DNA from: a virus
Direction: 5' to 3' (one strand)
Length of the DNA stretch: 34,757 bases
Virus record (IMG/VR): IMGVR_UViG_3300024348_003197
Location: 1 to 34,757 of that record
Shown: in pieces, positions 2,431 through 29,516 of the stretch
Layout of the letters: each line of letters starts with the position of its first letter
Numbering within the stretch: position 1 is the stretch's first letter
The notes under the pieces: model-generated
What the model saw: only the letters and a program-made list of their open reading frames with translations
The model's database searches: none
Told to the model about the DNA's origin: nothing
Program-made: the position numbers and the translations under genes

Positions 2431-3552
2431 TTATATTACGTATATTTGACGAGGCATTGCTCTAAACTTCATTTGTTTATTCAAGTTTTCAGCAAGTAAT
2501 GCTTCTTTCTCCATAACTTTTTCAGGTCTTAATCTGGTTAACCATCCTTCAGCGCCTGTAAGTTCTTCAATTAATTTTGTTTTTTCATCCTTACCTTCCG
2601 TCAATAGACTTGTATAATCCATTTGTAGTTCTGAGTCAGGAGTTTTTAAATTACCACTATATTTTCCTCTAACACGACCTAATGTTTCTTTTACATAAGC
2701 GGTAAACCATCTTCTTACCCATTGTTGTGCAGGAACATTTAAATCAGTCCAAGTCATTTCTTCTAAAGGAACTTCGTTTGGCATTTTAATTACGTCAGGA
2801 TTGTTCTTTAAACAATCTGCTCTACTATCAGGTGTTACATCATAATACCAATACCATACCGCTTTACCTACATAATTACTATACTGACTCCAGTTAAAGT
2901 TATTACCAGGTGCGTTGTATAGTTGTAAATCTTTTTTACCGTCAGGTAATGCTGTGATTCTATAAGTTAAAGAACCACCTAAAATTCTATTTAAGATGTT
3001 CGCCTCTTGCATTCTGATTAGATAATCGAAACCTGACATCATGAAGTAAGACCCTTGGTAACCCATTTGAGCGAATCCCGCTTCATTTGCCCCAAGACCT
3101 ACACCACCAAAACCACCAATACCTCCCATACCAAACGCAGTCCATGGTTGATTACTAAACCACAATACTTCGTTGATTTCACGACCAGCAGGGATTTCAT
3201 AGTTTTGTTTGTCTCTTTCAAGAATGATATAATCTTTCTTTAATACCCAAGGACCTTGAGCTTGAAGACCAACAATTTTAGAATATGAATATGAGAATTG
3301 TTGTTCAAAATCCATTGTTCTTGTGATTAACGCTTGAGCAACAGATTTTTCGGTCATGTTAAGATTAACCAAGTTAACCCACTGACTATCAATTAACCAA
3401 TTCAAGATATACTGTTCGTAATCCTGAATAGATAATTCCATTAAAGAGTCCATCATTTCGTCAGTGACTTCAACACTACGTAATGGAGCACCCAAGAGAT
3501 GTTTTACTCTTGTATAAATTTTTGACCTTTCTGGTTCTGGTATAACTGACAT
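2431..3552 (-). CDS. neck / head-tail connector candidate (gp13-like)
   Basis: A 373-residue protein with no signal peptide or membrane helix. The N-terminal part (KHLLGAPLRSVEVTDEMMD) resembles the 'LGxPxxxVEVTDEQ' opening common in phage neck and connector proteins. Residues around 140-160 are glycine-rich (GMGGIGGFGGVGLG). The C-terminal part (ETLGRVRGKYSG, then a charged helix with LLTEGKDEKTKLIEEL) resembles virion neck proteins of T4-like phages. T4 gp13 has 309 residues, so this is somewhat longer. It lies between the SOD-fusion gene and a small structural candidate, all on the minus strand. A TATTTATT motif sits only 4 bases before the ATG. A virion role is fairly likely; equating it with gp13 is tentative. 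Confidence 0.6.
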   Translation of the reverse strand: MSVIPEPERSKIYTRVKHLLGAPLRSVEVTDEMMDSLMELSIQDYEQYILNWLIDSQWVNLVNLNMTEKSVAQALITRTMDFEQQFSYSYSKIVGLQAQGPWVLKKDYIILERDKQNYEIPAGREINEVLWFSNQPWTAFGMGGIGGFGGVGLGANEAGFAQMGYQGSYFMMSGFDYLIRMQEANILNRILGGSLTYRITALPDGKKDLQLYNAPGNNFNWSQYSNYVGKAVWYWYYDVTPDSRADCLKNNPDVIKMPNEVPLEEMTWTDLNVPAQQWVRRWFTAYVKETLGRVRGKYSGNLKTPDSELQMDYTSLLTEGKDEKTKLIEELTGAEGWLTRLRPEKVMEKEALLAENLNKQMKFRAMPRQIYVI

Positions 3553-3575: not shown

Positions 3576-5105
3576 TTATATGTTATATAAAAGTGAGTCA
3601 GACGGGAAAAGAAAATTACCATCAACTATTTTTGGTTTTTGGTCGAACACTAAAACGTTCTTACCTCGTTGAAATACCATCCAATCCGTCTTGTATAATT
3701 TAACACTTGCAGTACCCTCTAAAGAAATCCCATCTTCAGTTTCTTTCATTTCTCGAAATGGTTTAACTTGAGCGGTATATAACTTACCGTCTTTAATTAT
3801 TTCTAAATCTACACCTTGTATTGCATCTTTCTTATTTCCTAACTCACCAACCAATTCAACTTTGGCTGATTTACCAAAAAATCTTTTAAGAATTGCTGCA
3901 GTGATTTCTTCTCTTTTACTACCCGCCTTATCTTTTTCAGTTAAGACTCTTAATATGTTGTGAAGGGTTGAACTGTCTTTATCAAAGATTCTATCTTTAA
4001 AGTAATTCAATGCACTTATAAATCTTTCGACTTCTTTCTTTTGTTCTGCGGGAGTTTTGTCTGTAAAACTAATTGGTTGTTTGTTTGGAATCTTTGAAAT
4101 GACTTGGTTCAAATCTCTCAATAAAATACAGAACGTTGTGTAATTGGTGTTCAATTTATTAATCACCGACCTACCAGTACCTTCTAAATCGTAGACACCT
4201 GATAATTGATTGTTGTCAGGTTTTTCAATAAAGTTTTCACTAAACGCATCTCTAAGGATTCTATTAATACCATTCATGTAAGTCCATTTAACTTCTTGGT
4301 TTACGTTGAATAACATTCTGTAAAATTCTGTTTCAGACTTGGAACACATTTCAGATTTACCTTCACTAATAACTTGTTTCATCTTTGTCGACTCTAATAA
4401 TTTAGTTTCAATCTTCATCTCATACATTTTGGTTACAAAGTCCCAATTCACAACTTTCCAAAAGTTTAAAATATATTCATCTCTTTTGTTTCTATACTTC
4501 AAATAGTATGCGTGTTCCCATAGGTCCAAACCTAATAACGGGAATCCCCCACCTTCAATCACATTCATTAATGGATTGTCTTGGTTTGGGGTCGACATAA
4601 TTTTCAAGGTGTTTCGAGATGTCAAAACTAACCACACCCAACCTGAACCAAATCTTTCTTTGGCAACTTTTTCAAATTCTTTTTTAAAGTTTGTGAATGT
4701 CCCCCACTGTTTTGTAATCTTTTTGTAAAGTTCACCAGTAAGTTTTTTGGGTTCGGGAGTTAACATATTCCAAAACAAAGCGTGGTTAAATGCCCCACCT
4801 GCGTTGTTTCGAATTGTTTTATCAAAACGACTGATTGTTTTGATGATTTTTTCTAAATCTAAATCTCCGTATTTTTTCTTTGATAATGCGTCGTTTAGTT
4901 TATCGACATACCCTTTGTAATGTTTATTGTAATGGAAACTCATGGTTTCAGGGTCAATAAACTGTTTGAGGGCTGAGTAGGAATAAGGTAGTTTTTCTAT
5001 TCCGATTTTCTTCATTTCTGTAATCAACAACTCTTTTTCTTTGGTTACGTGATTTTCAAGTATCTGTAACTCTAGTTGTTGGATTTTCGCTTCTGTTTTT
5101 TTCAT
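3576..5105 (-). CDS. Mn-type superoxide dismutase fused to a C-terminal PD-(D/E)XK nuclease-like domain
   Basis: A 509-residue protein. Residues about 39-232 are a full Fe/Mn superoxide dismutase, which converts superoxide to O2 and H2O2. All four metal ligands are visible: H58, H108 (NHALFW), D194 and H198 (DLWEHAYY). Gly at NNAGGAFNH and Gln175 in NQDNPL match the Mn-type pattern (Gly77 and Gln146 of E. coli SodA). Residues 1-38 form a charged, probably helical extension. Residues about 240-509 are not SOD. They end in a module with AIQGVDLEI (D433), then YTAQVKPF (Q446, K448), matching the D-x(n)-(D/E/Q)xK core of restriction-endonuclease-like folds, followed by beta-strand-rich sequence. 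A typical SOD has about 200 residues. There is no frameshift or internal stop, so the fusion is genuine in this sequence. The gene is 41 bases downstream of the SNF2 helicase gene and has its own TATTTATA motif. The SOD part is firm; the nuclease assignment rests on a short motif. Confidence 0.88.
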   Translation of the reverse strand: MKKTEAKIQQLELQILENHVTKEKELLITEMKKIGIEKLPYSYSALKQFIDPETMSFHYNKHYKGYVDKLNDALSKKKYGDLDLEKIIKTISRFDKTIRNNAGGAFNHALFWNMLTPEPKKLTGELYKKITKQWGTFTNFKKEFEKVAKERFGSGWVWLVLTSRNTLKIMSTPNQDNPLMNVIEGGGFPLLGLDLWEHAYYLKYRNKRDEYILNFWKVVNWDFVTKMYEMKIETKLLESTKMKQVISEGKSEMCSKSETEFYRMLFNVNQEVKWTYMNGINRILRDAFSENFIEKPDNNQLSGVYDLEGTGRSVINKLNTNYTTFCILLRDLNQVISKIPNKQPISFTDKTPAEQKKEVERFISALNYFKDRIFDKDSSTLHNILRVLTEKDKAGSKREEITAAILKRFFGKSAKVELVGELGNKKDAIQGVDLEIIKDGKLYTAQVKPFREMKETEDGISLEGTASVKLYKTDWMVFQRGKNVLVFDQKPKIVDGNFLFPSDSLLYNI

Positions 5106-5111
5106 AGTATT

Positions 5112-5138
5112 GGATTATCCGTTATATATAAATAATCC
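5112..5138. repeat. inverted repeat overlapping the SOD-fusion promoter
   Basis: GGATTAT at 5112-5118 and ATAATCC at 5132-5138 form a 7-bp inverted repeat that flanks and partly overlaps the minus-strand TATTTATA box at 5127-5134. It could be an operator or a small hairpin in the 5' leader. With 7 bp in AT-rich DNA, chance cannot be excluded. Confidence 0.35.
5127..5134 (-). promoter_or_regulatory. TATTTATA late-promoter-like motif for the SOD-fusion gene
   Basis: A perfect TATTTATA on the minus strand, 21 bases before the ATG of the SOD fusion and inside the 41-base gap after the SNF2 gene. It suggests the fusion gene can be transcribed independently of the helicase. Confidence 0.5.
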
Positions 5139-5146
5139 GTAGTTCG

Positions 5147-6901
5147 TTAATGTCGCAGTTCGTTGATTCTTTGTAGTATTTCTTCTGCCATATCTGCGGG
5201 GTGTTGGTTGTCACCCATGACCGTTGCGATGACTTGTTTTTTGTTGTTTAAGATATCGTAGATGATACCTTCGATTGTGTTTTCGAATATTGGGTAATAA
5301 ACCAAAACATTGTTTTTTTGTCCATAACGATAAGCTCGGTCTTCAGCTTGTGCGTGGTCAGATGGAAGGAATGATAAGTCATTCATAATAACAGCTTCAG
5401 CTGCGGTTAGTGTAATACCTACACCCGCAGCTTTAATGTTACCCACAAATACTTTAACCTTGGGGTTGTCTTGGAATTGGTCAACTGAGTTTTGTCTTTC
5501 AGGTTTTGACATGGAACCATCAAGTTTCACCGCGACTTTACCAAAGTGTTCTGTGATTTTATTTAAGGAATCAGTGAAATTACAGAAAATAATAACCTTC
5601 TTGTCTTGTTCAAGAATGTTTTCAGCGAGTTCAATAGTTTGTGCAATTTTTTCATCGGCTATGATTTGTCGAACTTTTGTAAGTTTAGTGAACTGAACTG
5701 TAAGTGATTTTGATTCTTCAGGGTTCTTGTCGTACCAATCGTAATACTCGCCCATTACATTTTCATATTCTTTCGACTTCAATCTTAAATATACAGGAGT
5801 GATAATCTTATCGGGTAAATCCAATACGTTCTCTTTTAGTCGTCTTAATGTTAGACCAACAGTTCGGTCTCTTAACTCCTCCAAGTTGGATGCTCCCGTT
5901 ACGTTCCAAACCTTTCTTCCACCAACATTAAATTGGTATCCTGAACAATAACGGATTGCATAAGCCATCCAATTTTTTGCAACAGGTGAATCAATCAAAC
6001 TCAATAAGTTGAAGTAATCAATTGGTCGTGATGTCATCGGGGTACCTGTTAATAACCAAAGTCGTTCAGTTTTTTTAACAATGTCATTAATTAGTTTTGT
6101 CCTTTGCGCCGTAGCATTTTTGATATAGTGTGCTTCATCGACAATAACCAAATCAAAATTGGCAGCAAGAACTTGAGAGTCATCTTTCTTTTTAGTGTCA
6201 TGGAAATTTTTTATTATGTCGTAGTTTATAATTACAAAATCTGCTTCGGTACTAAAGTTTTTACTTTCCGCAATATAAATTGATTTGTCTGAATAGTTTT
6301 CAATCTCACGTTTCCAATTAATCTTTAATGTTGCAGGACAAATAATTAATACTTTCTTTGAACCTGATTCTAATGCCGCAATAATTGTTGAAGTGGTTTT
6401 ACCAAGACCCATGTCATCGGCAAGGATAAACTTTTTGTTCTCAACTAATTTTTGGATTGCTTCTTTTTGGTGTTCAAGTGGTGGTCGGTGTGAATACTTC
6501 GAATAATCAATGACCACGTCTTTAACTGAATTATCTTTAATAATTGCCGCCTTTGGTAACCAAAAATCATGTAATTCTTCAGTTTCTAAAATCCTACCCC
6601 AAATGTGATATGCCTTTTCTTTATCCGCCAATAACTTCTCAACCCACACCTTTTGTGGTATTTCAGTATACAATTTATCATCGGCTAATTTCTGTGCAAA
6701 GTATGCGTCAAGGATAACCCACTTCTTAGCGACCTTTGGTTTTTGGTCGTGGAAATTAATAATGTATTCTGATTGACTTCGTGTCGGATAAAACTTTTTA
6801 TTGATTTGTGATTTGCGTTTTAATTCCAAGATATAGTTATTGAAACCTTCGTAGGATTCAAGAATCGTCATCGCTTTTGACTCTAAACTAACATCACTCA
6901 T
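5147..6901 (-). CDS. SNF2-family DNA helicase/translocase
   Basis: A 584-residue ATP-dependent superfamily 2 DNA translocase of SWI/SNF type. Both RecA-like lobes are complete: motif I DDMGLGKT (K168), motif Ia region IICPATLKINW, motif II DEAH (about 255-258), motif III TGTPM (285-289), and the C-terminal motif VI DRAYRYGQ, whose arginines complete the ATPase site. Residues 1-135 precede the helicase core and are probably a substrate-binding region. T4 has UvsW, another SF2 helicase, for fork remodelling. The RxxRxGQ motif and LTLRRLKENV segment place this one in the SNF2 group, closer to SMARCAL1-like annealing translocases. It is the first gene of the minus-strand cassette, divergent from the neck-like genes at 6958, and next to the SOD-nuclease fusion. 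Family is sure; role in repair, replication restart or host interference is inferred. Confidence 0.93.
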   Translation of the reverse strand: MSDVSLESKAMTILESYEGFNNYILELKRKSQINKKFYPTRSQSEYIINFHDQKPKVAKKWVILDAYFAQKLADDKLYTEIPQKVWVEKLLADKEKAYHIWGRILETEELHDFWLPKAAIIKDNSVKDVVIDYSKYSHRPPLEHQKEAIQKLVENKKFILADDMGLGKTTSTIIAALESGSKKVLIICPATLKINWKREIENYSDKSIYIAESKNFSTEADFVIINYDIIKNFHDTKKKDDSQVLAANFDLVIVDEAHYIKNATAQRTKLINDIVKKTERLWLLTGTPMTSRPIDYFNLLSLIDSPVAKNWMAYAIRYCSGYQFNVGGRKVWNVTGASNLEELRDRTVGLTLRRLKENVLDLPDKIITPVYLRLKSKEYENVMGEYYDWYDKNPEESKSLTVQFTKLTKVRQIIADEKIAQTIELAENILEQDKKVIIFCNFTDSLNKITEHFGKVAVKLDGSMSKPERQNSVDQFQDNPKVKVFVGNIKAAGVGITLTAAEAVIMNDLSFLPSDHAQAEDRAYRYGQKNNVLVYYPIFENTIEGIIYDILNNKKQVIATVMGDNQHPADMAEEILQRINELRH

Positions 6902-12430: not shown

Positions 12431-12458
12431 GGGGGTACTAATCATACCCCCTTTATTT
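12431..12458 (+). terminator. rho-independent terminator after the sheath gene
   Basis: GGGGGTA (12431-12437) pairs with TACCCCC (12445-12451) around a 7-base loop, followed by TTTATTT. It lies 10 bases after the sheath stop and ends 7 bases before the ATG of the next gene, so it may also influence that gene's initiation. Confidence 0.85.
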
Positions 12459-12465
12459 GCCAAAT

Positions 12466-13296
12466 ATGAAAAGACAACTTAGAGAGGGATTTAAAGGTGA
12501 GGGAACACCAGATATGAAATATTATGCTTTTGATTGGGATGATAATATTGTCCATATGCCAACAAAGATAATATTAAAAACTGAAGATGGTGACGAAGTT
12601 GGTATGAGTACAGATGATTTTGCCGAATACAGAAGTATAATCGGAAAAGAAGATTTTGAATATAAAGGAGATACTATTGTTGGATTCGGTGAAGACCCTT
12701 TTAAAAATTTTAGAACTGAAGGTGATAAAGATTTCTTGGTCGATGCGATGAGAGCAAAACTTGGACCAGCATTCAACGATTTTAGAGAAGCAATTAATAA
12801 CGGTTCAATATTTTCCATCATCACCGCAAGAGGTCACAACCCCAACACTTTAAAACAAGCCGTTTACAATTATATTATTGACGGATTTAATGGTATAGAT
12901 AAAGACCAACTCGTTAAGAACCTTAAAAAATACAGGTCGTTTTTTGACGAGGACGATATGACGGACGATGAATTAATCAAGTCATATTTAGACCTCAACA
13001 AATATCATCCAGTGTCTTTTGACGATGAAGAAGGTGCTGCCAACCCTGAAGAAGCTAAAGTTCGTGCTATGGAGGGATTTGTTTCTTATATTAAACAAAT
13101 GGCTAATGACTTAAATAAAAGAGCATTTTTCAAAAATGATGTATCTAATAACTTTGTTCCAGAGCAACCTATTATTGGATTCTCAGATGATGATGTTAGA
13201 AATGTAGAAGTAATGAGTAAACATTTTAAAGATAAACCAGATAATATAGTTAAAACTTATTCTACTGCTGGAGGCGTTAAGAAGGAATATAAGTAG
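12466..13296 (+). CDS. HAD-like phosphatase/hydrolase
   Basis: A 276-residue protein of the haloacid dehalogenase superfamily, likely a phosphatase. Motif I is FDWDDNI (D23 the nucleophile, D25 the acid/base), motif II is SIITARGHN (T120) and motif IV is GFSDDDVRN (D241-D243). Residues about 30-110 and 125-235 form inserted cap regions. I chose ATG 12466 because the in-frame TTG at 12457 lies in the T-tract of the preceding terminator. It is lodged between sheath and tube genes, which are adjacent in T4. The substrate cannot be read from the sequence; end-processing of nucleic acid (as for T4 PseT's phosphatase half) or a nucleotide are possibilities. No kinase P-loop is present. Confidence 0.82.
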   Translation: MKRQLREGFKGEGTPDMKYYAFDWDDNIVHMPTKIILKTEDGDEVGMSTDDFAEYRSIIGKEDFEYKGDTIVGFGEDPFKNFRTEGDKDFLVDAMRAKLGPAFNDFREAINNGSIFSIITARGHNPNTLKQAVYNYIIDGFNGIDKDQLVKNLKKYRSFFDEDDMTDDELIKSYLDLNKYHPVSFDDEEGAANPEEAKVRAMEGFVSYIKQMANDLNKRAFFKNDVSNNFVPEQPIIGFSDDDVRNVEVMSKHFKDKPDNIVKTYSTAGGVKKEYK

Positions 13297-16766: not shown

Positions 16767-19700
16767 ATGGGTAGTCCGTTAGATTATATTAGCACCGAAG
16801 GATTCAGAAAAAAACTGATGACTCGTAATTTAGTACCTTATGCTAAATCGCCAAGTCCTGCTACGCCACCAATTACTTATGAAGTAATTCAACAAGATTT
16901 AACACCTGTTGATTCACCCGATTTCTTAATTGATACAACATTTTTTGCCGACAAACAATATCCACTTAATAGGTGGGGTAATGAGGGGGGATATGAGTTT
17001 GCTCCTGACTTAACGGGTAATTTAAACACAACGTCTAACCAAGGTGAATACGGACCTGGGCAACAAGATGCACACATTGTTGATACAGGATTTGCTGCAA
17101 CTCAACTATGGAGACCATTAAACGCTTACTCAAGTCCAAATAATTTTGATGCGGGTGAAGCGGTTGTGTCTTTAGAAGTTGTTACTCCTGACCAAGATAG
17201 ACCTGCAAACGGACAACCATATCCGAGATTTAATCCATCATCCTATAGACCAATATCAATATTATTAAACCCCGACCCTCAAGGTAGTAATGGTTTATTG
17301 AGTGCTGACTCATTTATTGCTCGTTTAGGTGCCAAAACTTTAAAGAAAGAATTTGAAGACCGAATTGGACGAGCAATCATCAGAGAAACTTTAGGTAAAG
17401 CGAACATATTAAATGTTAATAGTAGTAGTAATCTTGTTAATATTTTAACAGGTAATGTACCTTTAATTGAACCGAACTATAATATTACGGTACCTTCTAA
17501 CCCAATCGGTGCGGCAGCACAATTTGGGTTGAGTCTTGCGGGAAGTCAAGTACCGTTCTCAACAATACCTGGTTCATATTGGGACCCAAATGTTAATCCA
17601 CCACAGCCTTCAACAATTGGTCAAGCACTTCTTGGTAATCCTATTGCTGCGGTAGGTAATTTAATAAGTAATCTTTTAGGAGCGGGTAAGACTGGTTCTC
17701 AAATATTCTTTGAGAATACAGGGCAAGGTCAAAAATCGTTATTGTTTAAGAACATTAACTTTAACAAATATAAGCCAAGTTACGACAGAACTTTAATTGA
17801 TAGATTGGGAGGTGCTCTTGTTGGTACCAACACAAACAATGCCAACTATTATATTGGTTCAACAACATCAGACCCATCAAGAATCTTTTCTCCATCAGGT
17901 GCACTTCCAAACAATGCCTTTGGATTTGAACAACAATCACCTGTTTATGGACCTGAAGTATTAGCTCAATTATATGAGGGACCAAGTAAAGAGATTAGAC
18001 TTGGTGCTAACGGACCGACTTACAGTAATGGTGGGGGTATTGAAGGTGGATTCACATGGGTATCTCCAAAGTATAGAGGTAATGCGGGTAAGAAAGTTGG
18101 TATTGGTGGAGAGATTACAAACGAAGATGAGGACTTTAAACCATCATCATACAACTCGACTGAGTCTACTCAAAGAACATTCAGAGAAGGTTCAATCCTT
18201 GACGACACCCAAAGAATTATTGATAGTCAACCACAAGGTGGTAATCGTTTAAGACATGCGGGTAATGCAATTGACCAAGTCAGTAAGGTATTTAACGATG
18301 GATACAAAGAAATGACTAAAGGTTCAAGAGTGTTAAGTTATGTTGGGGCGATTGGTCAAGAAGTTGGTACTGAATATTGTCGTGTATTTGCCAAAGATAT
18401 TCCTTATTTACAATACAATGACCTACAAAAGACTGATGGTATTACAACCGAAGGTAGAAGATTTGCTTGGTCTGTTTTAGATAAGACATACAACCTTAAC
18501 ATTGCTCCAAACAAACAAGAAGGGGGACAAGACTCAACAAATATAATTGGAACAATGAATAACGCTTATGCCAAAAAGTATATGTTCTCATTAGAAAACT
18601 TGGCATGGGCAACATCAAATACTCCAGGTTATTCGGTTTCAGATTTGGCGGTATGTGAGAGAGGACCTAACGGAGGTCGAGTTATGTGGTTCCCACCATA
18701 TAATCTGACATTCAATGAGTCCGTTCAGGCAAGTTGGCAAGGTAATGACTTTATTGGAAGACCTGAACCAATTTATACTTATAAAAACACAAGTAGAAGT
18801 GGTAGTTTAAGTTGGGATATTGTGGTTGACCACCCATCAGTATTGAATGTTATTGTAAATAAGGTTTTAGCTAACGAAACTAACAAACCAAGAATTGATA
18901 GTATTTTAGATTCATTCTTTGCTGGATGTAGAAAATATGACCTATATGAATTGGCTAAAAAATATTATACAATTAACCCTAACGATTTGTTTCAAATCCA
19001 ACAAGCTATAACGTCAAAGGAGATTACAAAAGAACAGATGCAATACGCGATTAGCGAAATAACCGTAAATGACGATGTTGCGGCAAATAATAGTGGAGGA
19101 GGAGCGTCTGGTTCGGGAGGTAGTGGTGCAGGTAGTGAAGATTATTTTAACAAGTATAAACAACTTGGATTTTACTTTTCAAACGACTACCCAAGACCTA
19201 AAACATCTCCAAACTATGAAGAAATGTATACCGAATATATTGGTGAAAAACCAACATATTCTAAAAAATCAAACGGACCACAATTGGATGAGTTTTATAA
19301 TACTGTGGTTACACCAAACTATGAAGTTGCCAAACAGTTTGCTATTGATATTTCCGAACAATTAAAAAATAGTGAAAGTGGTACTGTAACTGTTTATGTT
19401 AATTCAAGTTGTTCCGCACCTCAGACGGTTGCGTATAACAAATCATTGTCTGCTCGAAGAATTGATTCTGTTATTAAATTCTTTGAAAATAATCCTGCAA
19501 CATCCAAATGGATGAAAGAAAAAAGATTATTGGTCCTTAGTGGTACAGGTTTTGGAGAACAAACAACATCACAACCTTTAAAATCTAAAACAACTCAAGC
19601 ACCATATTCTATTGAAGGACTTTCACCCGTAGGTAATGTTGTGAATTGTACGGACAACGATGGTCAAGCGGTTGGTGGGGATACTCAATCAGTATCTAAA

Positions 19701-21839
19701 GAAATATATACGATAAATGCTATGTCATGTAGAAGGGCATATATTTCTAATATAAAATCTAATTTAAAGGCTCCGCAACCAATACCTACAACTCCTGCAC
19801 AAAGAACACAAACAGTTGTTACAGGTAATGTTGTTACAACAACTGAGACTCAAACAACAGTTGAAGAAAGTTGGGCGCCAAGAGATAATATTACAAAAAG
19901 AGTTTTAAGAGCTCTTTTATCTGAGTGTGATTATTTTGAAGTAATTAAAGAAGAGACACCAATGGTGTTTGATAATCTTAAAGATAAATTAAAGTTTTTT
20001 CAACCAGCTTTCCACTCAACAACACCTGAAGGTTTAAATACAAGATTAACCTTCTTACAACAATGTATGAGGCCTGGTGATACAATACCTGTGGTTAAGT
20101 CTATTGGGGGTAAGGATGTGTTAGAATATAATAATGCGACTAACACGGCATTTGGGGCACCACCAGTTCTTATTTTAAGGGTTGGGGATTTTTATAACAC
20201 TAAGGTTATACCAACAAGTTTGAGTATTACTTATGAAGGATTAGATATTAACCCTGAAGGTATCGGGATTCAACCTATGATTGCTAAAGTTCAGATGCAA
20301 TTTAACTTTGTTGGTGGTAGTGGATTGAAAGAGTCTGTTGATAGATTACAGAACGCACTAACATTTAACTACTATGCAAATACTGAGATTTATGATGATA
20401 GGGCGGATGTTACCGATACAAGTTATCAAGTGTTGGATAAAGAATTTTTACAATTTGCGGCATTATCTAATGTACCACCACCATCCATCAACAGTGCGGA
20501 ACCAAACAATGGTTTATCAAATGAAAGTACAATTGGTACAATATTGACAAATGTTATTAGTGAAACGGGTCAAACAGGTACTATTAGTTATCAAACTTTT
20601 ATGGATAAGTTGGCGGCTGAAACACAAAATTATTTTACAAATGTTGTAAATAAAAATAAAGAGGCTGTAAATCAGTATAACAACGCTTTACGTCAACAGT
20701 GGATGTTAGAGAGAAATTATCAACAAGGTAAGTTCTTGTTAACTGAAAACAGTGATACTATTTTATTTGGAAAACCATATAATTTTGAAAAAAGAATCGA
20801 TGATATTTTCAACGACTTAATTAAAGATGTTAAACAAGGTGACGAAGGATTTATTCAATTTATTGATAATTCTCAAAAAAACTTTTCAAACAAAGTAATT
20901 CGACAAGTAAAAGAAAATTATGCTAAAATACTTAACGATAAACGAGGAACGTATCAAAATGCGGTAACTAACATTACTCAGGGTATTGTTAATACCCAAC
21001 AAACTTATGTTGGTTATATTGCTAGAGCTAATACTATTTCATATACTGTTCCATCATTTACAAATACTGGTACTGACGGTTCGCAACAAAAAAATGGAAA
21101 TGTCGTTTCATACATTACAAAACCAACTCCAGACATTGATACGAGTTCTCAAGGTGTTACAAATACATTAGAAGAATTGGTACTTGATATCAAAAAAATT
21201 AACAGTGGAATTACTGAATTTAATAAAGTCGTAATGACTCAAAGTTCTTTCTTAAATCCTGGTGACGGTAAATTATACGCTGGAGTTTATTTAGTTTTTC
21301 CACCAAATTATACTTTCCCTCAAGGGGTAAAAGTATTTGTGCCAATTTCTAAAAATCAAAGTTATGTTAACTTAAGTCCAACAGCGACATTTGAAAATAC
21401 GACATTTAAAATGGTATATATGTTATTGTCTGATGATGTTGTTGATTCAAAAAAATATGAAACCTTTAAAAATGCTATGATTGGTAATATAATTAATAAT
21501 CAGGGGCTTATTGGTGATGGATGGGACGGTACTAAATTGAGCGAACAATTTGATGCATATTGGGATAAAATTGCAAAACCATTATTTAACGAAGAAAATA
21601 ATTTAACTAAAGAGTTTATAACAAGTCAAGAAAAAGTTAAATTAGAACCTTTCTTAAAATATACCCCTTATTCAACTAAAAAACGTGTATTTAGTTACAC
21701 GACTGAAAATGCGGGAACAAAACCTCAAGAAACTTTAATCAAAGGGTTAGGTTCGATTGAAAACCAAAATACAAATAATAAAACGTGGAATGATGAATTA
21801 TCTGCCGACGTGTATATATCAAAAGCAAAGTTTAACTAA
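16767..21839 (+). CDS. giant baseplate protein with an OmpA-like domain
   Basis: A 1690-residue protein. Residues 1-770 are structural sequence (for example PYNLTFNESVQASWQG, then GSLSWDIVVDHPS). A Gly/Ser linker (about 772-790, NNSGGGASGSGGSGAG) leads to an OmpA-like module at about 868-995. This shows a VTVYVNSS strand, YNKSLSARRIDSVIKFF near 889, LLVLSGTGFGEQ, and a closing NAMSCRRAYISNI. The arginine of the LSxRR motif is kept, but the peptidoglycan-contacting Asp of the usual TDxxG loop is absent. Residues about 1100-1240 carry RPGDTIP, APPVLILRVGDFYNTK and NPEGIGIQPMIAKVQM. This resembles a baseplate/tube-initiator region, perhaps gp48/gp54-like, though that is uncertain. The C-terminal 400 residues are mainly helical then beta-rich. 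The stop overlaps the gp53 start (TAATG). A baseplate location is inferred from the operon. Confidence 0.66.
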   Translation: MGSPLDYISTEGFRKKLMTRNLVPYAKSPSPATPPITYEVIQQDLTPVDSPDFLIDTTFFADKQYPLNRWGNEGGYEFAPDLTGNLNTTSNQGEYGPGQQDAHIVDTGFAATQLWRPLNAYSSPNNFDAGEAVVSLEVVTPDQDRPANGQPYPRFNPSSYRPISILLNPDPQGSNGLLSADSFIARLGAKTLKKEFEDRIGRAIIRETLGKANILNVNSSSNLVNILTGNVPLIEPNYNITVPSNPIGAAAQFGLSLAGSQVPFSTIPGSYWDPNVNPPQPSTIGQALLGNPIAAVGNLISNLLGAGKTGSQIFFENTGQGQKSLLFKNINFNKYKPSYDRTLIDRLGGALVGTNTNNANYYIGSTTSDPSRIFSPSGALPNNAFGFEQQSPVYGPEVLAQLYEGPSKEIRLGANGPTYSNGGGIEGGFTWVSPKYRGNAGKKVGIGGEITNEDEDFKPSSYNSTESTQRTFREGSILDDTQRIIDSQPQGGNRLRHAGNAIDQVSKVFNDGYKEMTKGSRVLSYVGAIGQEVGTEYCRVFAKDIPYLQYNDLQKTDGITTEGRRFAWSVLDKTYNLNIAPNKQEGGQDSTNIIGTMNNAYAKKYMFSLENLAWATSNTPGYSVSDLAVCERGPNGGRVMWFPPYNLTFNESVQASWQGNDFIGRPEPIYTYKNTSRSGSLSWDIVVDHPSVLNVIVNKVLANETNKPRIDSILDSFFAGCRKYDLYELAKKYYTINPNDLFQIQQAITSKEITKEQMQYAISEITVNDDVAANNSGGGASGSGGSGAGSEDYFNKYKQLGFYFSNDYPRPKTSPNYEEMYTEYIGEKPTYSKKSNGPQLDEFYNTVVTPNYEVAKQFAIDISEQLKNSESGTVTVYVNSSCSAPQTVAYNKSLSARRIDSVIKFFENNPATSKWMKEKRLLVLSGTGFGEQTTSQPLKSKTTQAPYSIEGLSPVGNVVNCTDNDGQAVGGDTQSVSKEIYTINAMSCRRAYISNIKSNLKAPQPIPTTPAQRTQTVVTGNVVTTTETQTTVEESWAPRDNITKRVLRALLSECDYFEVIKEETPMVFDNLKDKLKFFQPAFHSTTPEGLNTRLTFLQQCMRPGDTIPVVKSIGGKDVLEYNNATNTAFGAPPVLILRVGDFYNTKVIPTSLSITYEGLDINPEGIGIQPMIAKVQMQFNFVGGSGLKESVDRLQNALTFNYYANTEIYDDRADVTDTSYQVLDKEFLQFAALSNVPPPSINSAEPNNGLSNESTIGTILTNVISETGQTGTISYQTFMDKLAAETQNYFTNVVNKNKEAVNQYNNALRQQWMLERNYQQGKFLLTENSDTILFGKPYNFEKRIDDIFNDLIKDVKQGDEGFIQFIDNSQKNFSNKVIRQVKENYAKILNDKRGTYQNAVTNITQGIVNTQQTYVGYIARANTISYTVPSFTNTGTDGSQQKNGNVVSYITKPTPDIDTSSQGVTNTLEELVLDIKKINSGITEFNKVVMTQSSFLNPGDGKLYAGVYLVFPPNYTFPQGVKVFVPISKNQSYVNLSPTATFENTTFKMVYMLLSDDVVDSKKYETFKNAMIGNIINNQGLIGDGWDGTKLSEQFDAYWDKIAKPLFNEENNLTKEFITSQEKVKLEPFLKYTPYSTKKRVFSYTTENAGTKPQETLIKGLGSIENQNTNNKTWNDELSADVYISKAKFN

Positions 21840-22162
21840 TGGCGTATCAATATTGGAATAGGTATAGTGATTTTTTAATTAATGGTGAACAAACCGTTGT
21901 CCCTTTTGTGCAATTACCTCAAAAACCAACAGATAAGTCTTACATATATAAAGTAGCTCGTAGTCGATTAGATGTGGTATCTCAAGAGTATTATAACTCA
22001 CCATATTTTGGTTGGTTAATTTTACAAGCTAACCCTCAATTTGGTGGTTTAGAAAATAATATATTCGACGGTGCGGTATTGATTATTCCTTATCCACTAC
22101 TACCTTCATTACAAGACTATAAAGCGGCTTTAGATAACTATTTCTATTATTATGGCAGGTAA
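21839..22162 (+). CDS. 53: baseplate wedge protein (gp53-like)
   Basis: A 107-residue protein with the gp53/LysM-like pattern: SRLDVVSQEYYNSPYFGWLI, then LQANPQFGG, IFDGAVLIIPYPL and a final LQDYKAALDNY helix. In T4, gp53 (196 residues) joins neighbouring wedges into the hexagonal baseplate; this is a minimal version covering the conserved core. The start overlaps the previous stop as TAATG, and the end overlaps the next gene by 11 bases, so the three baseplate genes are translationally coupled. Family assignment is good. Confidence 0.85.
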   Translation: MAYQYWNRYSDFLINGEQTVVPFVQLPQKPTDKSYIYKVARSRLDVVSQEYYNSPYFGWLILQANPQFGGLENNIFDGAVLIIPYPLLPSLQDYKAALDNYFYYYGR

Positions 22163-25100
22163 CAGACCAGGAGACAACAGTGGAAACGTATTAGTAGAAT
22201 TTGATTACAATAACATTATTGTTGTTGACCCAAATAAAACTATTGATGCGTTTGGTAATATTAGTGAAAGATTGGTTGACCATGAGAATTTGGTTATGTT
22301 TGCCAACCTTGAAGCCGAAGTATTGCCAAGAACTAAGTTGGCGGTAGGTGGAAGTCCTGAAGACAGAGCTCGAGTTATTTCCGTTGCTAAAATTAATTTT
22401 TTAAGACCAACTGAAGGAACTTATTTAACTTCAGGGTATTACGATGAGTTGACTGGTAAGGGTGCCGTAAATGGTTTAGGAGTAAACCAAACAAGAACAC
22501 AAACTATTGACCCAAATGATGGGACAAAACCATATGATAAGGTTACGGTAAACAACCCTGGAAATGTGGCAACCGACAACGGGTTATTGGGTATCACTTC
22601 AATTAACGTAAGAACAAACACTTCATTTGTACCTCAAGTAACAATTGAATTGGAAGATATTCAAGGTAAAGCTTTATTTGAACTTGGTGATAACTCACCT
22701 TACGCAGCTTTTTTTAATTTACCATATCCTCCATTTTATCTTACACTTAAAGGTTATTATGGTCAAGCGATTAAGTATCAATTAAATTTAAAAACTTTTA
22801 ATGCCAGATTTAATTCATTCAGTGGGAATTATCAAGTTACGTTAGAATTTGTTGGATATAAATTTAATATCCTTAATGAAATATCTATGGGTCATTTATT
22901 GGCGGCTCCACACATGTATAGTACAAGATTTGATATTTCTAAATCGCCAACATCTGCTGAGGGTGGTAATAAAAATATTGAATCAACTACAAAACAAAGT
23001 AATACCATTGCGGGTCAGGCGAGTAATAGTCAAAACAATGTGGTTACCCAAATTGTGAGTGAAAAAGGTTATCAGAAAGTTATTGAGGTTTATAGTGAGT
23101 ATAAGGCTAAAGGATTACTTGACCCTGATTTTCCTGAAATGACATTTGCTCAGTTTATGAATTCTTTGGAAAATTTTGAAAAGACAATTATTGATTCATA
23201 TACTAAAGTTGATGTGGAACCATTGACTAATATTAGGGCGTATAAAGAAACTTTGAAAAATTATTATAACGAAATTTATGGTTCTGATACGTCTTGGTAT
23301 AATACATACATGAATACAAGACCAATTGTATTAAAAAATGGAACTTACATTTACGCGTTTAAAGAAGAAATATTAAAAGACCCTACAAGACAACAAGCTG
23401 CTCGAACATTGTTAAGTGGTTATACCTCACAATATAATGCACTGTTGGCTGAAAATCCAACACTTGGGGTAAAAGGTAAATCACCAATTAAAAACCCAAT
23501 AACCAATAATACTATGTTAATTACGGTTAACATAGATGATATTGATTTGACTAAGACAACAATTCAACAAACGGGTATATTTGCACCAACTCAGGGAAAT
23601 ATTGATGCGACTAAAAAATACTTACAAGAATTGTACAAACCAGCCGCTGAAATAACTTTGAGTCCAACAACATCTTCAAATCAGTCAAGTTCTTTAAATG
23701 TAATTAAATCACCATTTTTTATTTTTAAAACAAATACGGTAACAAACCAAGTTGAGCCAAGATTTGAAAATTTAATTTACCAAGTTGAGGCTGAGGCGAA
23801 TAGAAAACTAACGGAATATGAAACTATATTAACTGCCGATTTTTCAAGGAAAATCGAGGATTCTAAAATTGGTCTTGGATTTAGACCAACGGTAAGAAAT
23901 GTTTGTGCGGTTATAATGGCATCTGCTGAAGCGTTTATTCGTTTAATGGATGAGGTTCATACAAATGCTTGGAATGTAAAATATGACCCTGTTAGACAAT
24001 TAGCGATATTAGATAATCCTTCATCGGCACCTGGTACTGATACATTACAAAAAGTTGGGAAAACCCAAGAAGCGGCAAATCAAAACCAAGGATTATCGAC
24101 AAGTGATGTGCCTGTTTATCCTTGGCCTCAATTCTTTGTTGAAACTCCTGATGATAAAAAAGGAAGATTTCAATTAAGGTATATTGCGGACCCTTCAGTT
24201 GTTGATATAACAAAAGGATTTCTTTATGACAAATGGCCTGAAGTTGAGTTTGTTGAAGAATACATGAAAGGTATTACCCAAAGGTTTAATCCACCTATTG
24301 CTCAGGTACCAACGGATAGTCAGGCAACTACAAACATTATTAATATCAATGCGATTGAATACCCTTCAAATGGGATTGCTTATGCTAACAAAGAAGAAAT
24401 TAAATTCTTTTATGAAATTTGGGAAAGACAATTTTTAACCGCTAACTACTCAGGATATATTAGAGCGAATACAAATCAGTTAAGTCAATTAACGGACTTA
24501 GTTTCAAATTCGGAAACAACTAATATTGTTACAAGTTTAGGTGTTAGTTCACCATTTTTGACTTTAAAACTTAAAAATTACGATATAACTGCTCAGAATT
24601 ATGAACAAACTTTATCTAATTTTTCTAACCAAGGTACAGGTAGAGCGTACCAAGAATTTATACGAGATTTTTATGTGACACCATACATTAGAAATCTAAC
24701 TGAAAACTCTTTTAATATACTAACAATAAATGATTTGGGTAAAGAACCCCAAAATGCTGCCAAATATGAAGCTTTAGAACAGTTGGTTAAAAACGCATCA
24801 AACGACACATTAATTATTGATACATATCCGTTTACAAACTCAACTTGGGTTTCTAATAACATGGCTCAAAGTATTACAAACACTAACAATTCTGTTTATA
24901 ATACAAAACAAGTATTAAGAGTTTTTAAAGAAAGAAATGTTATATCAAACTTTGATAGTGTTTATGATTATACAACAAACAGACCTGTAACTAATTTTTC
25001 TTATTTAACGGTAACCGACCCAATTCCTGAGATTACTCAAACTAATTTATCAGTATTTTTAGATACTAGAAAAAACCCTGAAAAGTTCATACCAACTGAA

Positions 25101-28100
25101 GGGTATGTTTATCATACAAGACAGGTAAATAATATTACAACTGAAACAACAACCACTATGTTGAATACACCGTACATGGTGAATGCGATTCAAAATGGTG
25201 TATATAATTGGAGGAAGAAAGATAAGTACCCATATGTTCAAGCGGCTTACTTATTTATTAATTCATTACCTTTAGCTTCTCTAAAAGAAAAATACAAAAC
25301 ATTAAACTCGTCGAATGATTTAGATTACATTGCATCTTGTTTTAAAAAGTTTGGTGCGATTCATAAAATGCCATACGCTTGGGTTTTAAAAATGGGGTCT
25401 ATTTGGTATAGATATAAAACTTATAAAACAACTGGCGTTGATTTCTTGGATAGTGCTTGGACTAACTTTGACTATAAAGGTAATTTTGACCCAGTGGCTA
25501 GTTCAGATACTAAAACATATAAGTTTGAGTTTGACGGTTTTAAAGAAATTACATTACAAAACACAACATCAAGTTTAAATCCAAAAATACAATCAGGGTT
25601 TTATCCTAAAGTTATTAATGATTTTAACGTGTTTTATAATGGTTATGATTTATACAAAGATTATACTGATACTGAGATTCAATCGAGTATTGGTGGAGGT
25701 ATGAAAGTGTATAACTTTAAAGATTCGAATATTAACCCAAGTGGTTCAGTTGTAGACCTTTTAACTGGTGTTCCTAAAATAACCACAATTGAGACTTGGT
25801 CTGTGGTGTTACCTGATACTGTAATGGATTTAGATAATTTAGCAAGTAATTGTAAACCAAACCAAAATACTAAAAGTGGTAAGTATTTTATAGTACCTTC
25901 ATTTGGTTCACCTATAAACCAAATAAACGTTGAGTTATTACAAAATAATGTTCAGATTGTTCCGTTCTTAAATAACCCTTCCATTTATAATGGTTCTGTA
26001 AGAATGTTGTGGTCGGCACCAAACTATGGTTATTTTAACAATACAGAAGTAATTAAACCAAGTCCCGAAAAATATGTAAACAAAATTTTAACAGGTAATA
26101 CAAAACAATCTGCGTTTAAATTATTAATTACTGACGAGTATTCGAACATTGAAGAAATATTCTCTGTGTTTGATAAAAGTATTTTGGATAAATTTGAACA
26201 AGAGTTTTTAAATTTCTCTAAGCCAATTGCTGATATTGATTTAGGTCCACAAGTAAGTGTACCTGTTGGTGAATCCCCTGTTGATAACACCGCATTATAC
26301 AGGAATTTCCAATATTTGTTTAGAAGTTTAATGTCTGTGAATACAAACCTTGGACTAACTAATTCAGAATATTTTAACACACTTGGTAACACACAACTAG
26401 TTTCATTTTCAAATACCATCAAATCGTTTTTAGATTATGATGTGATGTTAAAATACGGTAACCCTGCCAATTATAAGAGAAGAGTTGTTGATTCGTTTAT
26501 TGAAGCTAACAACGGACCAAATACAGTTACCGACCCAATTAATTTTGGGACTTATATTAATGGTACCTTACCTTCAAGTAATGGAACTATAACTTTGGCT
26601 CAATCTAAAGCGTTGTACCCTAATCAATGGTTGGCGTTAGAAACTGAAGTTGGATTCTCAACTATTAAAAACTTGGTATATACTAACCAGGGTTCATATA
26701 TTACAGATTTCTTTATTGATAATAATATTGGATTTACCGTTGATAACATTGTTTTATGTTCTCAATTAATTAAACAGTATGCAACACAAAAACTTATTAC
26801 ACCAACTTTAACTAGTGGTGAGTTTAAGACAAGATTACAAACTTATTTAGGGGGTACGGCAGCAATTCAAGATTTGTTTTTAAATCAAATATTAACAAGA
26901 GTTAGACTTGAATTACCTAATCAACAAGAATTACCTGAAAAGAAAATACAGAGTGTTATTGATGGGCAACAATCTAAAGTTGAGAATTATGAAATGTTCA
27001 AAGCGTTGAATGACAAATGGATTGCAGGTGGAGATTATTCAAGTAAAACATTATTCGAAGATTTCTTGTTCTTAGATAGAGCGTCAAGAAATATTGGTGA
27101 CACTTTATTAGTTGACATCTTCTCATTAAAAGATAGTCTTTTAGGTAACAAAACTTTTGAAGAATCTTCATTTAATATGGAAATGAGTGTTTTCACATTC
27201 ATAAGTGGAATATTAATTAGAAATAAATTTAATGTGATGCCACTACCAGCTTACGTTAATTTTTATAATGTACAGGATGCTGATGGAACAACTATATCGC
27301 AAAGTGCTGAGGGTTCTTTAGAATTTGCGGATAATATGTGGGGTACATTTTTAGATGTTGATTATAGAAAATCAAGTCCAAAAGTAGTTTGTTTCTATGC
27401 GGGATTACCATCCGCTCAATTAGACCTACCTAAAGGTAATTCAAGATTTAGAGATGATTCATTTGAGTTAAGACGAGCATCTGAAAATCCGTTAATTGAA
27501 AATCAAGTAGGTAAACGAGATTGGGCTTTTTCTAATAAATGTGTTGGATTTAATGTTGATATTGGAACTAGAAATCAAAACATATTTTACTCATTCAATG
27601 TTTCAATGGATAGTGGGAAAGCAACGTCTGAAACAATACAAACTCAGATTAACATGGTTAATCAAGCTAACGGTAAGAATGTTGCAACACAAAACGTAGG
27701 GTTATATAATCTATACAAACAAAGAAGTTACCAATGTCAAGTGGTTTGTTTGGGTAATGCTTTATTACAACCAACGATGTACTTTAATTTAAGACACGTC
27801 CCAATGTTTAATGGACCTTATTTGATAACAGAGGTTAATCACACAATTCAACCAGGTCAATTCCAAACAGATTTTACAGGTGTTAGACAGGGTATTTATG
27901 ATTTACCATCTATTGATAATTTATTACAAAGTTTAAATCAGAATTTATTAACACAAATTGAAACCGCGATTTTAACTAAGAAAGATAATATACCTGCAAA
28001 ACCAATTACAAATATAAATAAGACTGCACTTCTTTCACAAATAGGTGAAAATACTGCGGCGGCAGTGAATAGTTGTACTTTATCTTTAAATACTAATTAT

Positions 28101-29516
28101 AGTACTTGGGGAGATTTTGTTGAATCCGCAACAATTAAATTGAGTGAACAACAATTAGCAGATGCAATTGTTGCTAAAACAAGTGATGTGAATTTGCAAA
28201 TGCTTATTTACCTAATGTGTTATATTAAAACATATAATAAGGATAGTTTCTATGGTTATAATAACAACTTCGCCAATGTTGAGTTAAGTGTATATTGGGG
28301 GCAAAGTACCCAATACTTTATACAAAAACAGGCATCATGTGTTTCAGTTTCAAACTCAACTTCATCATTAGCGAATAGTCCAACACCAATCGCTAACTTT
28401 GATAGTATTGACAAGTTTATTGATTTTATGATTGCAAGGTTAACGCCAAATGTTAGACGTATTTTGTTTGGTGAGAATGGTAATGCTCCATTAGGATTAC
28501 CAAAATTCTATGTTTGTTATTGGACGCCAGCAACAAGTGCAAATCCTAATACTACTCCAGAATATTTTGACGCAAATCAAGATGAGTTTAAAACACTTTT
28601 TGAAACGGTTAAAAAAGGATTAAACTCGGCTAGAGAAGTACAATTAAGTACTGATGCCAATTTTAATGTAACTAAAGCAAATAAAGAACAAGAACAACAA
28701 ATCGCCAATGGTGGTGCTGGTGCAACAAACAACCAAAATACTACAACAGTTCCTGCTCCTGTTTGTTTACCACCTTCGATAACATCATTTACACCATCAA
28801 CAGGTGTTGTGGGTACGATAGTTAATATTATTGGTAAAGAATTTAGTTCAGTGACTGGTGTAACAATAAATGGAGTTACCGTTACAACGGGTATTACTAT
28901 TAATAGTGATACTAATGTGGTTGTTGTAGTTCCATTTAGTAATACTATTGTTCCACAAAACAATGTAATAACATTAAAAGGTGTTTACGGTGTCGGTTCA
29001 AGTACGACAACATTTACATATAACCCGCAACAAGTATCTGCGGCACCTCCATCAACGGTATCAAACGTACCGTTAAATGCTAATACCCAACCACAACAGA
29101 CTGGTGAATTACCATTGATTGGTGTAACCCAAAATGGTTTATACTCGTTAAGTCAGGCATCTATCAACGTTAGCATTAATCCATCGTTAAGTGCTTCGTA
29201 CACAATGTTACCAACACAAATACCGCCAATACTTAAATTTAAAGTAACGCAACAAAACACATCAAATAATGTTACACAAACATATACAGTTTATGAAAGT
29301 GGTGAAATTGCGTTAGATGTGATTTATTTTACAACACCATCTAATTTCTACATGTCAGAAAATGATATAATATCAGTTATTACAAATGCTTGGCAAACCC
29401 CACCACCAAATAGTAATATAATTTGTGAGTTTGCGTTTAACGCTGAACCTATTTTAGTTGCTGCGGTACCACCTCAAACGGTTTACCAATTCTTTAAACT
29501 AAACATACAGATATAA
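22152..29516 (+). CDS. giant baseplate/hub protein with an IPT/TIG domain
   Basis: At 2454 residues this is the largest gene in the window. The N-terminal 250 residues carry ITSINVRTNTSFVPQVTIEL and PYAAFFNLPYPPFYLTLKGY. They look like a beta-rich baseplate fold that I believe recurs in large baseplate proteins of Bacteroidetes phages, though I could not verify this. At about 1877-1913, HVPMFNGPYLITEVNHTI and FQTDFTGVRQG resemble the C-terminal strands of gpD/VgrG/gp27-type hub proteins. Residues about 2206-2291 (PPSITSFTPSTGVVGTIVNI, then VTINGVTVTTG) are an IPT/TIG immunoglobulin-like domain. The last 160 residues are Thr/Pro/Asn-rich. No lysozyme or other catalytic motif was recognised. 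Several T4 wedge and hub genes have no separate counterpart here, so it may combine their roles. The gene is certain, baseplate location likely, exact role unknown. Confidence 0.66.
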   Translation: MAGNRPGDNSGNVLVEFDYNNIIVVDPNKTIDAFGNISERLVDHENLVMFANLEAEVLPRTKLAVGGSPEDRARVISVAKINFLRPTEGTYLTSGYYDELTGKGAVNGLGVNQTRTQTIDPNDGTKPYDKVTVNNPGNVATDNGLLGITSINVRTNTSFVPQVTIELEDIQGKALFELGDNSPYAAFFNLPYPPFYLTLKGYYGQAIKYQLNLKTFNARFNSFSGNYQVTLEFVGYKFNILNEISMGHLLAAPHMYSTRFDISKSPTSAEGGNKNIESTTKQSNTIAGQASNSQNNVVTQIVSEKGYQKVIEVYSEYKAKGLLDPDFPEMTFAQFMNSLENFEKTIIDSYTKVDVEPLTNIRAYKETLKNYYNEIYGSDTSWYNTYMNTRPIVLKNGTYIYAFKEEILKDPTRQQAARTLLSGYTSQYNALLAENPTLGVKGKSPIKNPITNNTMLITVNIDDIDLTKTTIQQTGIFAPTQGNIDATKKYLQELYKPAAEITLSPTTSSNQSSSLNVIKSPFFIFKTNTVTNQVEPRFENLIYQVEAEANRKLTEYETILTADFSRKIEDSKIGLGFRPTVRNVCAVIMASAEAFIRLMDEVHTNAWNVKYDPVRQLAILDNPSSAPGTDTLQKVGKTQEAANQNQGLSTSDVPVYPWPQFFVETPDDKKGRFQLRYIADPSVVDITKGFLYDKWPEVEFVEEYMKGITQRFNPPIAQVPTDSQATTNIININAIEYPSNGIAYANKEEIKFFYEIWERQFLTANYSGYIRANTNQLSQLTDLVSNSETTNIVTSLGVSSPFLTLKLKNYDITAQNYEQTLSNFSNQGTGRAYQEFIRDFYVTPYIRNLTENSFNILTINDLGKEPQNAAKYEALEQLVKNASNDTLIIDTYPFTNSTWVSNNMAQSITNTNNSVYNTKQVLRVFKERNVISNFDSVYDYTTNRPVTNFSYLTVTDPIPEITQTNLSVFLDTRKNPEKFIPTEGYVYHTRQVNNITTETTTTMLNTPYMVNAIQNGVYNWRKKDKYPYVQAAYLFINSLPLASLKEKYKTLNSSNDLDYIASCFKKFGAIHKMPYAWVLKMGSIWYRYKTYKTTGVDFLDSAWTNFDYKGNFDPVASSDTKTYKFEFDGFKEITLQNTTSSLNPKIQSGFYPKVINDFNVFYNGYDLYKDYTDTEIQSSIGGGMKVYNFKDSNINPSGSVVDLLTGVPKITTIETWSVVLPDTVMDLDNLASNCKPNQNTKSGKYFIVPSFGSPINQINVELLQNNVQIVPFLNNPSIYNGSVRMLWSAPNYGYFNNTEVIKPSPEKYVNKILTGNTKQSAFKLLITDEYSNIEEIFSVFDKSILDKFEQEFLNFSKPIADIDLGPQVSVPVGESPVDNTALYRNFQYLFRSLMSVNTNLGLTNSEYFNTLGNTQLVSFSNTIKSFLDYDVMLKYGNPANYKRRVVDSFIEANNGPNTVTDPINFGTYINGTLPSSNGTITLAQSKALYPNQWLALETEVGFSTIKNLVYTNQGSYITDFFIDNNIGFTVDNIVLCSQLIKQYATQKLITPTLTSGEFKTRLQTYLGGTAAIQDLFLNQILTRVRLELPNQQELPEKKIQSVIDGQQSKVENYEMFKALNDKWIAGGDYSSKTLFEDFLFLDRASRNIGDTLLVDIFSLKDSLLGNKTFEESSFNMEMSVFTFISGILIRNKFNVMPLPAYVNFYNVQDADGTTISQSAEGSLEFADNMWGTFLDVDYRKSSPKVVCFYAGLPSAQLDLPKGNSRFRDDSFELRRASENPLIENQVGKRDWAFSNKCVGFNVDIGTRNQNIFYSFNVSMDSGKATSETIQTQINMVNQANGKNVATQNVGLYNLYKQRSYQCQVVCLGNALLQPTMYFNLRHVPMFNGPYLITEVNHTIQPGQFQTDFTGVRQGIYDLPSIDNLLQSLNQNLLTQIETAILTKKDNIPAKPITNINKTALLSQIGENTAAAVNSCTLSLNTNYSTWGDFVESATIKLSEQQLADAIVAKTSDVNLQMLIYLMCYIKTYNKDSFYGYNNNFANVELSVYWGQSTQYFIQKQASCVSVSNSTSSLANSPTPIANFDSIDKFIDFMIARLTPNVRRILFGENGNAPLGLPKFYVCYWTPATSANPNTTPEYFDANQDEFKTLFETVKKGLNSAREVQLSTDANFNVTKANKEQEQQIANGGAGATNNQNTTTVPAPVCLPPSITSFTPSTGVVGTIVNIIGKEFSSVTGVTINGVTVTTGITINSDTNVVVVVPFSNTIVPQNNVITLKGVYGVGSSTTTFTYNPQQVSAAPPSTVSNVPLNANTQPQQTGELPLIGVTQNGLYSLSQASINVSINPSLSASYTMLPTQIPPILKFKVTQQNTSNNVTQTYTVYESGEIALDVIYFTTPSNFYMSENDIISVITNAWQTPPPNSNIICEFAFNAEPILVAAVPPQTVYQFFKLNIQI

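Follow-up and report, generated by a model that had tools for sequence, protein, structure and literature searches.

Why should a phage gene join a superoxide dismutase (SOD) to a nuclease-like protein, and does the joint product act as one enzyme or as two? The question is raised by the window, a 34,757-nucleotide stretch of viral DNA (IMG/VR record IMGVR_UViG_3300024348_003197, positions 1 to 34,757) in which an initial annotation had read a SOD and a further C-terminal part as one uninterrupted 509-residue frame. The frame is real, and it lies on the minus strand: a single run of 509 codons from ATG to stop, where the plus strand has many stops. The locus comprises the following features, in window coordinates.

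5147-6901, minus strand: preceding gene, 584 aa, SNF2-type DNA helicase (PF00176, 8.5e-29; PHROG 62)
5128-5134, minus strand: TATTTAT late-type motif, 29 bases 5' of the fusion ATG
3576-5105, minus strand: SOD-PD-(D/E)XK fusion gene, 509 aa, kept as a single frame in 69 distinct sequences
5016-5105, minus strand: leader, residues 1-30, proposed capsid-targeting propeptide ending I-T-E, variable save at its end
5016-5024, minus strand: proposed cleavage site 1, I28-x-E30 / M31; I and E in 69/69, middle residue T, S or A
4428-5015, minus strand: Fe/Mn superoxide dismutase module, residues 31-226 (Pfam match 36-226)
4392-4400, minus strand: proposed cleavage site 2, L236-x-E238 / S239; L/I and E in 69/69, middle residue A, T, L or M
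4362-4370, minus strand: proposed cleavage site 3, (L/I)246-x-E248 / G, S, A or E249; E in 69/69, L/I in 66/69, M in 3/69
3579-4361, minus strand: C-terminal module, residues 249-509, from AlphaFold2 and Foldseek; a helical part (about 256-378), then a PD-(D/E)XK-like part (about 379-509)
3762-3809, minus strand: putative nuclease motif D433 ... Q446-V-K448, with E399 upstream; invariant in 69 sequences
2431-3552, minus strand: next gene, 373 aa, head-tail adaptor (neck) homologue (PHROG 211 Ad2, E 3e-10)

An imperfect inverted repeat, GGATTAT...ATAATCC (5112-5118 and 5132-5138), flanks the late-type motif; it is present in most relatives, with some changes in the arms, and might be an operator or an RNA hairpin.

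The join is no accident of assembly. Relatives of the fusion protein are encoded in 368 IMG/VR stretches, the best 80 of which match mostly over residues 1-509, and conservation could be followed in 69 distinct full-length fusions from IMG/VR (65 in an earlier set, to which counts out of 65 refer). When 80 contigs were fetched by the neck-adaptor gene alone, independently of the fusion, 74 carried the fused gene. These fusions and contigs rule out an assembly artefact, and the pairing that the initial annotation had held to be undescribed is absent from the publications that we found in open-access full text. Gene order is constant where inspected: the SNF2-type helicase, the fusion, the neck adaptor (PHROG 211) and a 111-aa protein follow each other on the same strand, and the DNA polymerase gene faces this run. 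The view that the gene belongs to a phage is supported; its carriers, uncultured T4-like phages of fresh water, form a widespread group. The adjacent helicase contains intein and LAGLIDADG-type insertions in two relatives (L452:980-4936 and L446:1198-4086), reaching 1318 and 962 aa respectively, against 584 aa in the window. Two very long genes occupy the tail/baseplate region of the window (16767-21839, 1690 aa; 22152-29516, 2454 aa); their counterparts in G001, a contig that carries the fusion, encode 1674 and 2548 aa.

Is the SOD half a working enzyme? Residues 36-226 match Pfam Sod_Fe_N (PF00081, 2.9e-22, 79.4 bits) and Sod_Fe_C (PF02777, 1.8e-39, 134.3 bits), both complete and over the cut-offs. 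The metal ligands H58, H108, D194 and H198 and the Mn-type Q175, named at these positions in the initial annotation, are unchanged in 69/69 full-length fusions; H62, Y66 and E197 are likewise invariant. By sequence this part is closest to Mn-type enzymes, and it is under strong constraint, since mean identity among the fusions is 90% in the SOD region and 66-68% in the C-terminal part. The data support a complete Mn-type SOD of the Fe/Mn family, with dismutation activity and bound metal as predictions. One residue stands out: position 105 is Ala in 65/65 fusions tested, where SODs usually have His (by comparison with 6gsc). This substitution could be taken to mean that the SOD has become a structural domain or a scaffold for dimerisation, its enzymatic role lost, leaving only the nuclease at work (or the reverse), a reading that would also suit the fact that MnSODs are dimers; set against it are the invariance of every metal ligand and of H62, Y66, Q175 and E197, and the SOD region being the most conserved part of the protein. 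We consider it very improbable.

The cellular SODs nearest to the phage enzyme are nearly all from Bacteroidota, many of them Chitinophagales; identity to Bacteroidota SODs is about 49%, and that to bacterial Fe/Mn-SODs over the SOD part is 44-57%. The phage SODs form one clade (support 100/99) on a long branch that is poorly placed among the Bacteroidota SODs, and their M31 corresponds approximately to the start of bacterial SODs that have no signal peptide. The motif TAnnTTTG, typical of Bacteroidota promoters, precedes some G001 genes, that for DNA polymerase among them. The host of the fusion phages is likely a member of the Bacteroidota. A peroxiredoxin (AhpC/TSA) that might act as partner in removing H2O2 was not found in eight related contigs.

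For the C-terminal part, a restriction-endonuclease-like fold had been proposed from GVDLEI (431-436) followed by QVK (446-448). Both motifs are present as described, and D433, Q446 and K448 are invariant in 69/69 fusions, residue 435 being E, K or R. The profile match to a curated PD-(D/E)XK family that might have been expected did not materialize: no Pfam family scored above its curated cut-off with the C-terminal part of the window protein, 30 of 39 members had a weak match to DUF6602 (7.7e-4 at best), PHROG and PADLOC searches with this part gave zero matches, and no solved structure matching it by sequence was found. AlphaFold2 supplied with 39 sequences of the C-terminal part returned a model with pLDDT 90.9 and pTM 0.85 (a first full-length model, poor in its SOD half owing to a shallow alignment, was left unused), the core of which resembles the alpha-beta-beta-beta arrangement of known PD-(D/E)XK members. 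Among solved structures Foldseek placed I-Ssp6803I at the top (E 7.7e-3, probability 1.00), Hjc after it (0.82), and PrfA and RecU lower; the remaining matches were implausible, so that the PD-(D/E)XK enzymes are the only credible ones, though their E-values are weak. Because a confident model finds only these enzymes as sensible solved neighbours, the PD-(D/E)XK fold is supported for the C-terminal part, while a nuclease or DNA-binding function is putative.

Among predicted viral proteins the best Foldseek matches were A0A6J5L953, aligned over 257 columns of the C-terminal model (35% identity, TM 0.89), and A0A8D9CCA0, a marine-phage protein of 1113 aa (21% identity, TM 0.84). The length and UniProt name of the former ('superoxide dismutase', 501 aa) imply the same fusion, and it is probably another copy that has passed unremarked. 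Two huge phages have remote relatives that keep G-x-D...Q-x-K intact and lack SOD, one of 251 aa in LR745206 and one of 290 aa in LR756501; the module thus exists in phages unjoined to SOD. The D/QxK motif is kept in the remote relatives L158 (LR745206), L335 and L446. The LR745206 protein used as query gave no matches in viral contigs, and a pattern-based search of genome contigs, which detects close relatives only, yielded no cellular relative of the C-terminal part.

If both modules are sound, what lies between them? In the first 65 fusions only three (L/I)-x-E triplets are invariant, and all three are at module borders—immediately before M31, at 236-238 and at 246-248—each with a free middle residue. 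L/I-x-E is the cleavage rule of the T4 prohead protease gp21 (PMC9026906). In the enlarged set of 69 the third triplet begins with L/I in 66 and M in 3, and the residues before M31 are ITE, ISE or IAE throughout, at the end of a 30-residue leader that otherwise varies; cleavage at this first site would put Met at P1'. The motif is only three residues long, and a focused test on this gene, border against folded-domain invariant glutamates, gave p = 0.067. A broader signal comes from G001–G007 ortholog pairs, which represent whole genomes and not the fusion gene itself: conserved L/I-x-E is 2.1 times as frequent in the first 30 residues as beyond residue 60 (47/2462 vs 161/17762, p = 1.8e-5). 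Of the control patterns, [LI].Q was somewhat raised near N-termini, and [LI].D, [VF].E and [LI].K showed no enrichment there. The gp21-type protease itself starts MKQLRILE/A, and the SOD-less relative in LR745206 starts MKKFTEYIKE/S; L335, the relative in a 735-kb huge phage, starts MAFEKFED, with no clear capsid-targeting sequence (CTS). Internal initiation at M242, which would give two proteins from the one frame, is unlikely because this Met is replaced by F, L or I in 17/65 sequences.

Leaders of this kind are seen elsewhere. The window encodes (12457-13296) a protein with a YYAFDWDDN(I) motif and a short leader containing L/I-x-E (MKRQLREG), another candidate for a packaged protein; the protein with this motif in huge phage LR745206 (L158:606-1661) has a different leader, MIKKFNQFLEN. 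Many neighbouring proteins on that stretch (L158, LR745206.1) begin with leaders of MKxF type that have a final E, such as MKHIKSFRLYEN and MRHLKRFNES, which suggests widespread capsid targeting in that huge phage too.

Relatives in which the slot is filled differently provide an independent view of the module borders. The adaptor-fetched contigs without the fusion have the nuclease alone (L446, L448), the SOD alone (L454) or neither (L440, L452, L466). The stand-alone nuclease of L446 and L448, 278 aa long, starts MTTVKTSTYLILLTE/KAEKCS, its leader ending LLTE, and aligns with ILSE-GKSEKCS of the fusion, the junction at site 3. The stand-alone SOD of L454, 272 aa, opens with about 66 leader residues; their end, FILSE/MKKIGIEKLPYAYS, aligns with LLITE-MKKIGIEKLPYSYS of the fusion so that L-S-E occupies the position of site 1; the protein stops at the counterpart of residue 236, i.e. 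at site 2. The ends of the stand-alone forms thus show natural module borders coinciding with I28-x-E30, L236-x-E238 and (L/I)246-x-E248. In a tree of fusion and stand-alone forms the stand-alone rows were too long-branched to be placed. The SOD-only contig also encodes a small protein, MNKIVRLTERDLQRIVKRVINED..., between helicase and SOD (L454:3285-3644), which resembles other CTS-like N-termini of G001 (MKTVKLTESDITRLVKRVLSEQ).

These borders bear directly on the suggestion in the initial annotation that the SOD rides on a DNA-bound protein. An uncut bifunctional enzyme, its SOD tethered to a DNA-bound nuclease for local protection of DNA in the cell or capsid, would be at ease with a single conserved frame devoid of a conserved internal start and with the retention of catalytic residues in both modules. 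It sits badly with the occurrence of single modules at the same locus, each with its own leader, and with conservation of L/I-x-E at both borders of the SOD; nor is it evident why else the linker should have retained two L-x-E triplets whose middle residue varies freely. We regard it as rather unlikely. Because these motifs mark both SOD borders and the modules also stand alone, SOD and nuclease modules are probably separated after packaging. Of the original interpretation, then, the SOD, the fold, the D...QxK motif and the true, widespread fusion in a phage gene all stand; the tethering of the SOD to a DNA-bound protein is not the best reading.

Separation by a head protease presupposes a head protease, and a gene made at the right time. 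A gp21-type protease (PF03420) is encoded in two contigs that carry the fusion, G001 (182 kb) and G007 (107 kb), the former of which has gp23 (PF07068) as well; these genes are found only in contigs spanning that region, which the window itself does not span. TATTTAT, which corresponds to the reverse-complemented core of the T4 late motif TATAAATA, lies upstream of 52/184 G001 genes (L163-L171; ORF calling mechanical), where about 4 are expected, and TATTTAT(A) is a strong late-promoter-like motif in this phage group. It precedes the fusion and the genes for protease, putative scaffold, sheath, tube and baseplate, and is absent before the DNA polymerase, RecA-like and adjacent helicase genes. 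(Scored matches underlie the names tube, protease, gp23, helicase, DNA polymerase and adaptor; scaffold, sheath, baseplate and RecA-like are presumptive names, given from position, sequence resemblance or our own reading, without a scored match.) The motif is present in 49/51 distinct fusion upstreams, at -23, -26 or -29, and also precedes the stand-alone nuclease gene. CTS-like N-termini are commoner in the genes that bear it (20/52 vs 25/132, p = 0.006). The distribution of TATTTAT and its co-occurrence with CTS-like N-termini place the fusion gene with the late virion genes; against a head precursor, the adjoining helicase is a non-virion gene.

Late expression would also suit an auxiliary enzyme that stays out of the particle, its SOD guarding the infected cell and its C-terminal part processing replicating or packaged DNA in the manner of a Holliday-junction resolvase. 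Hjc and RecU are indeed among the structural neighbours, and helicase and DNA polymerase genes are close by. Such an enzyme would not require leaders ending in L/I-x-E on all three forms of the gene, and, since the module is missing at the slot in three relatives, it does not look like the essential resolvase of the group. This explanation appears to us quite unlikely.

We therefore return to a head precursor as the preferred reading: on the whole it is probable, though by no means firmly so, that two internal head proteins are made from the fusion gene as one precursor, which is packaged, split by the gp21-type protease and delivered with the DNA. The 30-residue leader would serve as capsid-targeting sequence, and the protein would be built into the core of the prohead during its assembly. 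Cuts by the gp21-type protease of the phage, made after I-T-E30 and, within the linker, following L-x-E238 and/or (L/I)-x-E248, would set free the leader, the Mn/Fe-SOD and the PD-(D/E)XK-fold protein inside the capsid, and the last two would both be delivered with the DNA. The SOD might then remove superoxide around the incoming or packaged genome, or shield the host cell while infection upsets its respiration; the nuclease-fold protein might act upon DNA of the host or of competitors, or else upon ends or junctions of DNA. Packaging, cleavage, ejection, the two enzyme activities and their targets are what we infer from the genes. In its strongest form the proposal is possible but tentative: SOD and nuclease, both active once the protease has released them, would be injected with the genome as a pair of entry enzymes, one to quench superoxide and the other to attack the DNA of the host or of rivals. 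Should the head-precursor reading be right, oxidative stress during genome entry would be of consequence for phages of abundant freshwater bacteria, tailed phages would stand beside chloroviruses as carriers of SOD in the particle, and T4-type capsid targeting would be a general means of delivery, its cargo in metagenomic phages recognizable by L/I-x-E motifs. The locus is modular, with both enzymes, either or neither, and offers natural variants for comparison.

One of the closest parallels is T4, which loads internal proteins via short N-terminal propeptides (CTS) that are then removed (PMC9026906), and whose heads have been loaded with foreign enzymes, nucleases included, by the CTS route (PMC9026906, PMC3012670). 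To judge from the genes, the fusion protein would seem to work in the manner of a T4 internal head protein; membership of the class hinges on packaging and cleavage. With IPI, IPII, IPIII and Alt it would share an N-terminal leader ending in L/I-x-E, gp21 and gp23 homologues and late-type control, and, as with T4 internal head proteins, the "cargo" enzymes vary at a given locus. It differs in its cargo, a SOD and a PD-(D/E)XK-fold protein in one precursor with two or three predicted cuts, and in its leader, 30 residues long against about 10 in T4 internal proteins (PMC9026906) and without evident similarity to theirs, a short leader being typical and not strict. Taken singly, the SOD module has the ligands and Mn-type Gln of bacterial Fe/Mn-SODs (SodA/SodB); unlike these single-domain enzymes, the phage SODs form their own clade, have Ala at 105 and carry an extra leader and C-terminal module. 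The C-terminal module shares core fold and D...QxK-type motif with I-Ssp6803I, archaeal Hjc and RecU, and differs from them by an additional helical part of about 120 residues. The probable further copy of the fusion, A0A6J5L953 from an uncultured Caudovirales phage, was deposited under its SOD name only. For a SOD in a virus particle there is the A245R protein of chlorovirus PBCV-1, a late product that is carried within the virion and is linked to lowered superoxide during infection (PMC7019647). A245R is a Cu/Zn-SOD of unrelated fold, unfused, in a eukaryotic virus and without a head-protease step; it is nonetheless the closest functional precedent for the phage SOD, whose packaging we infer.
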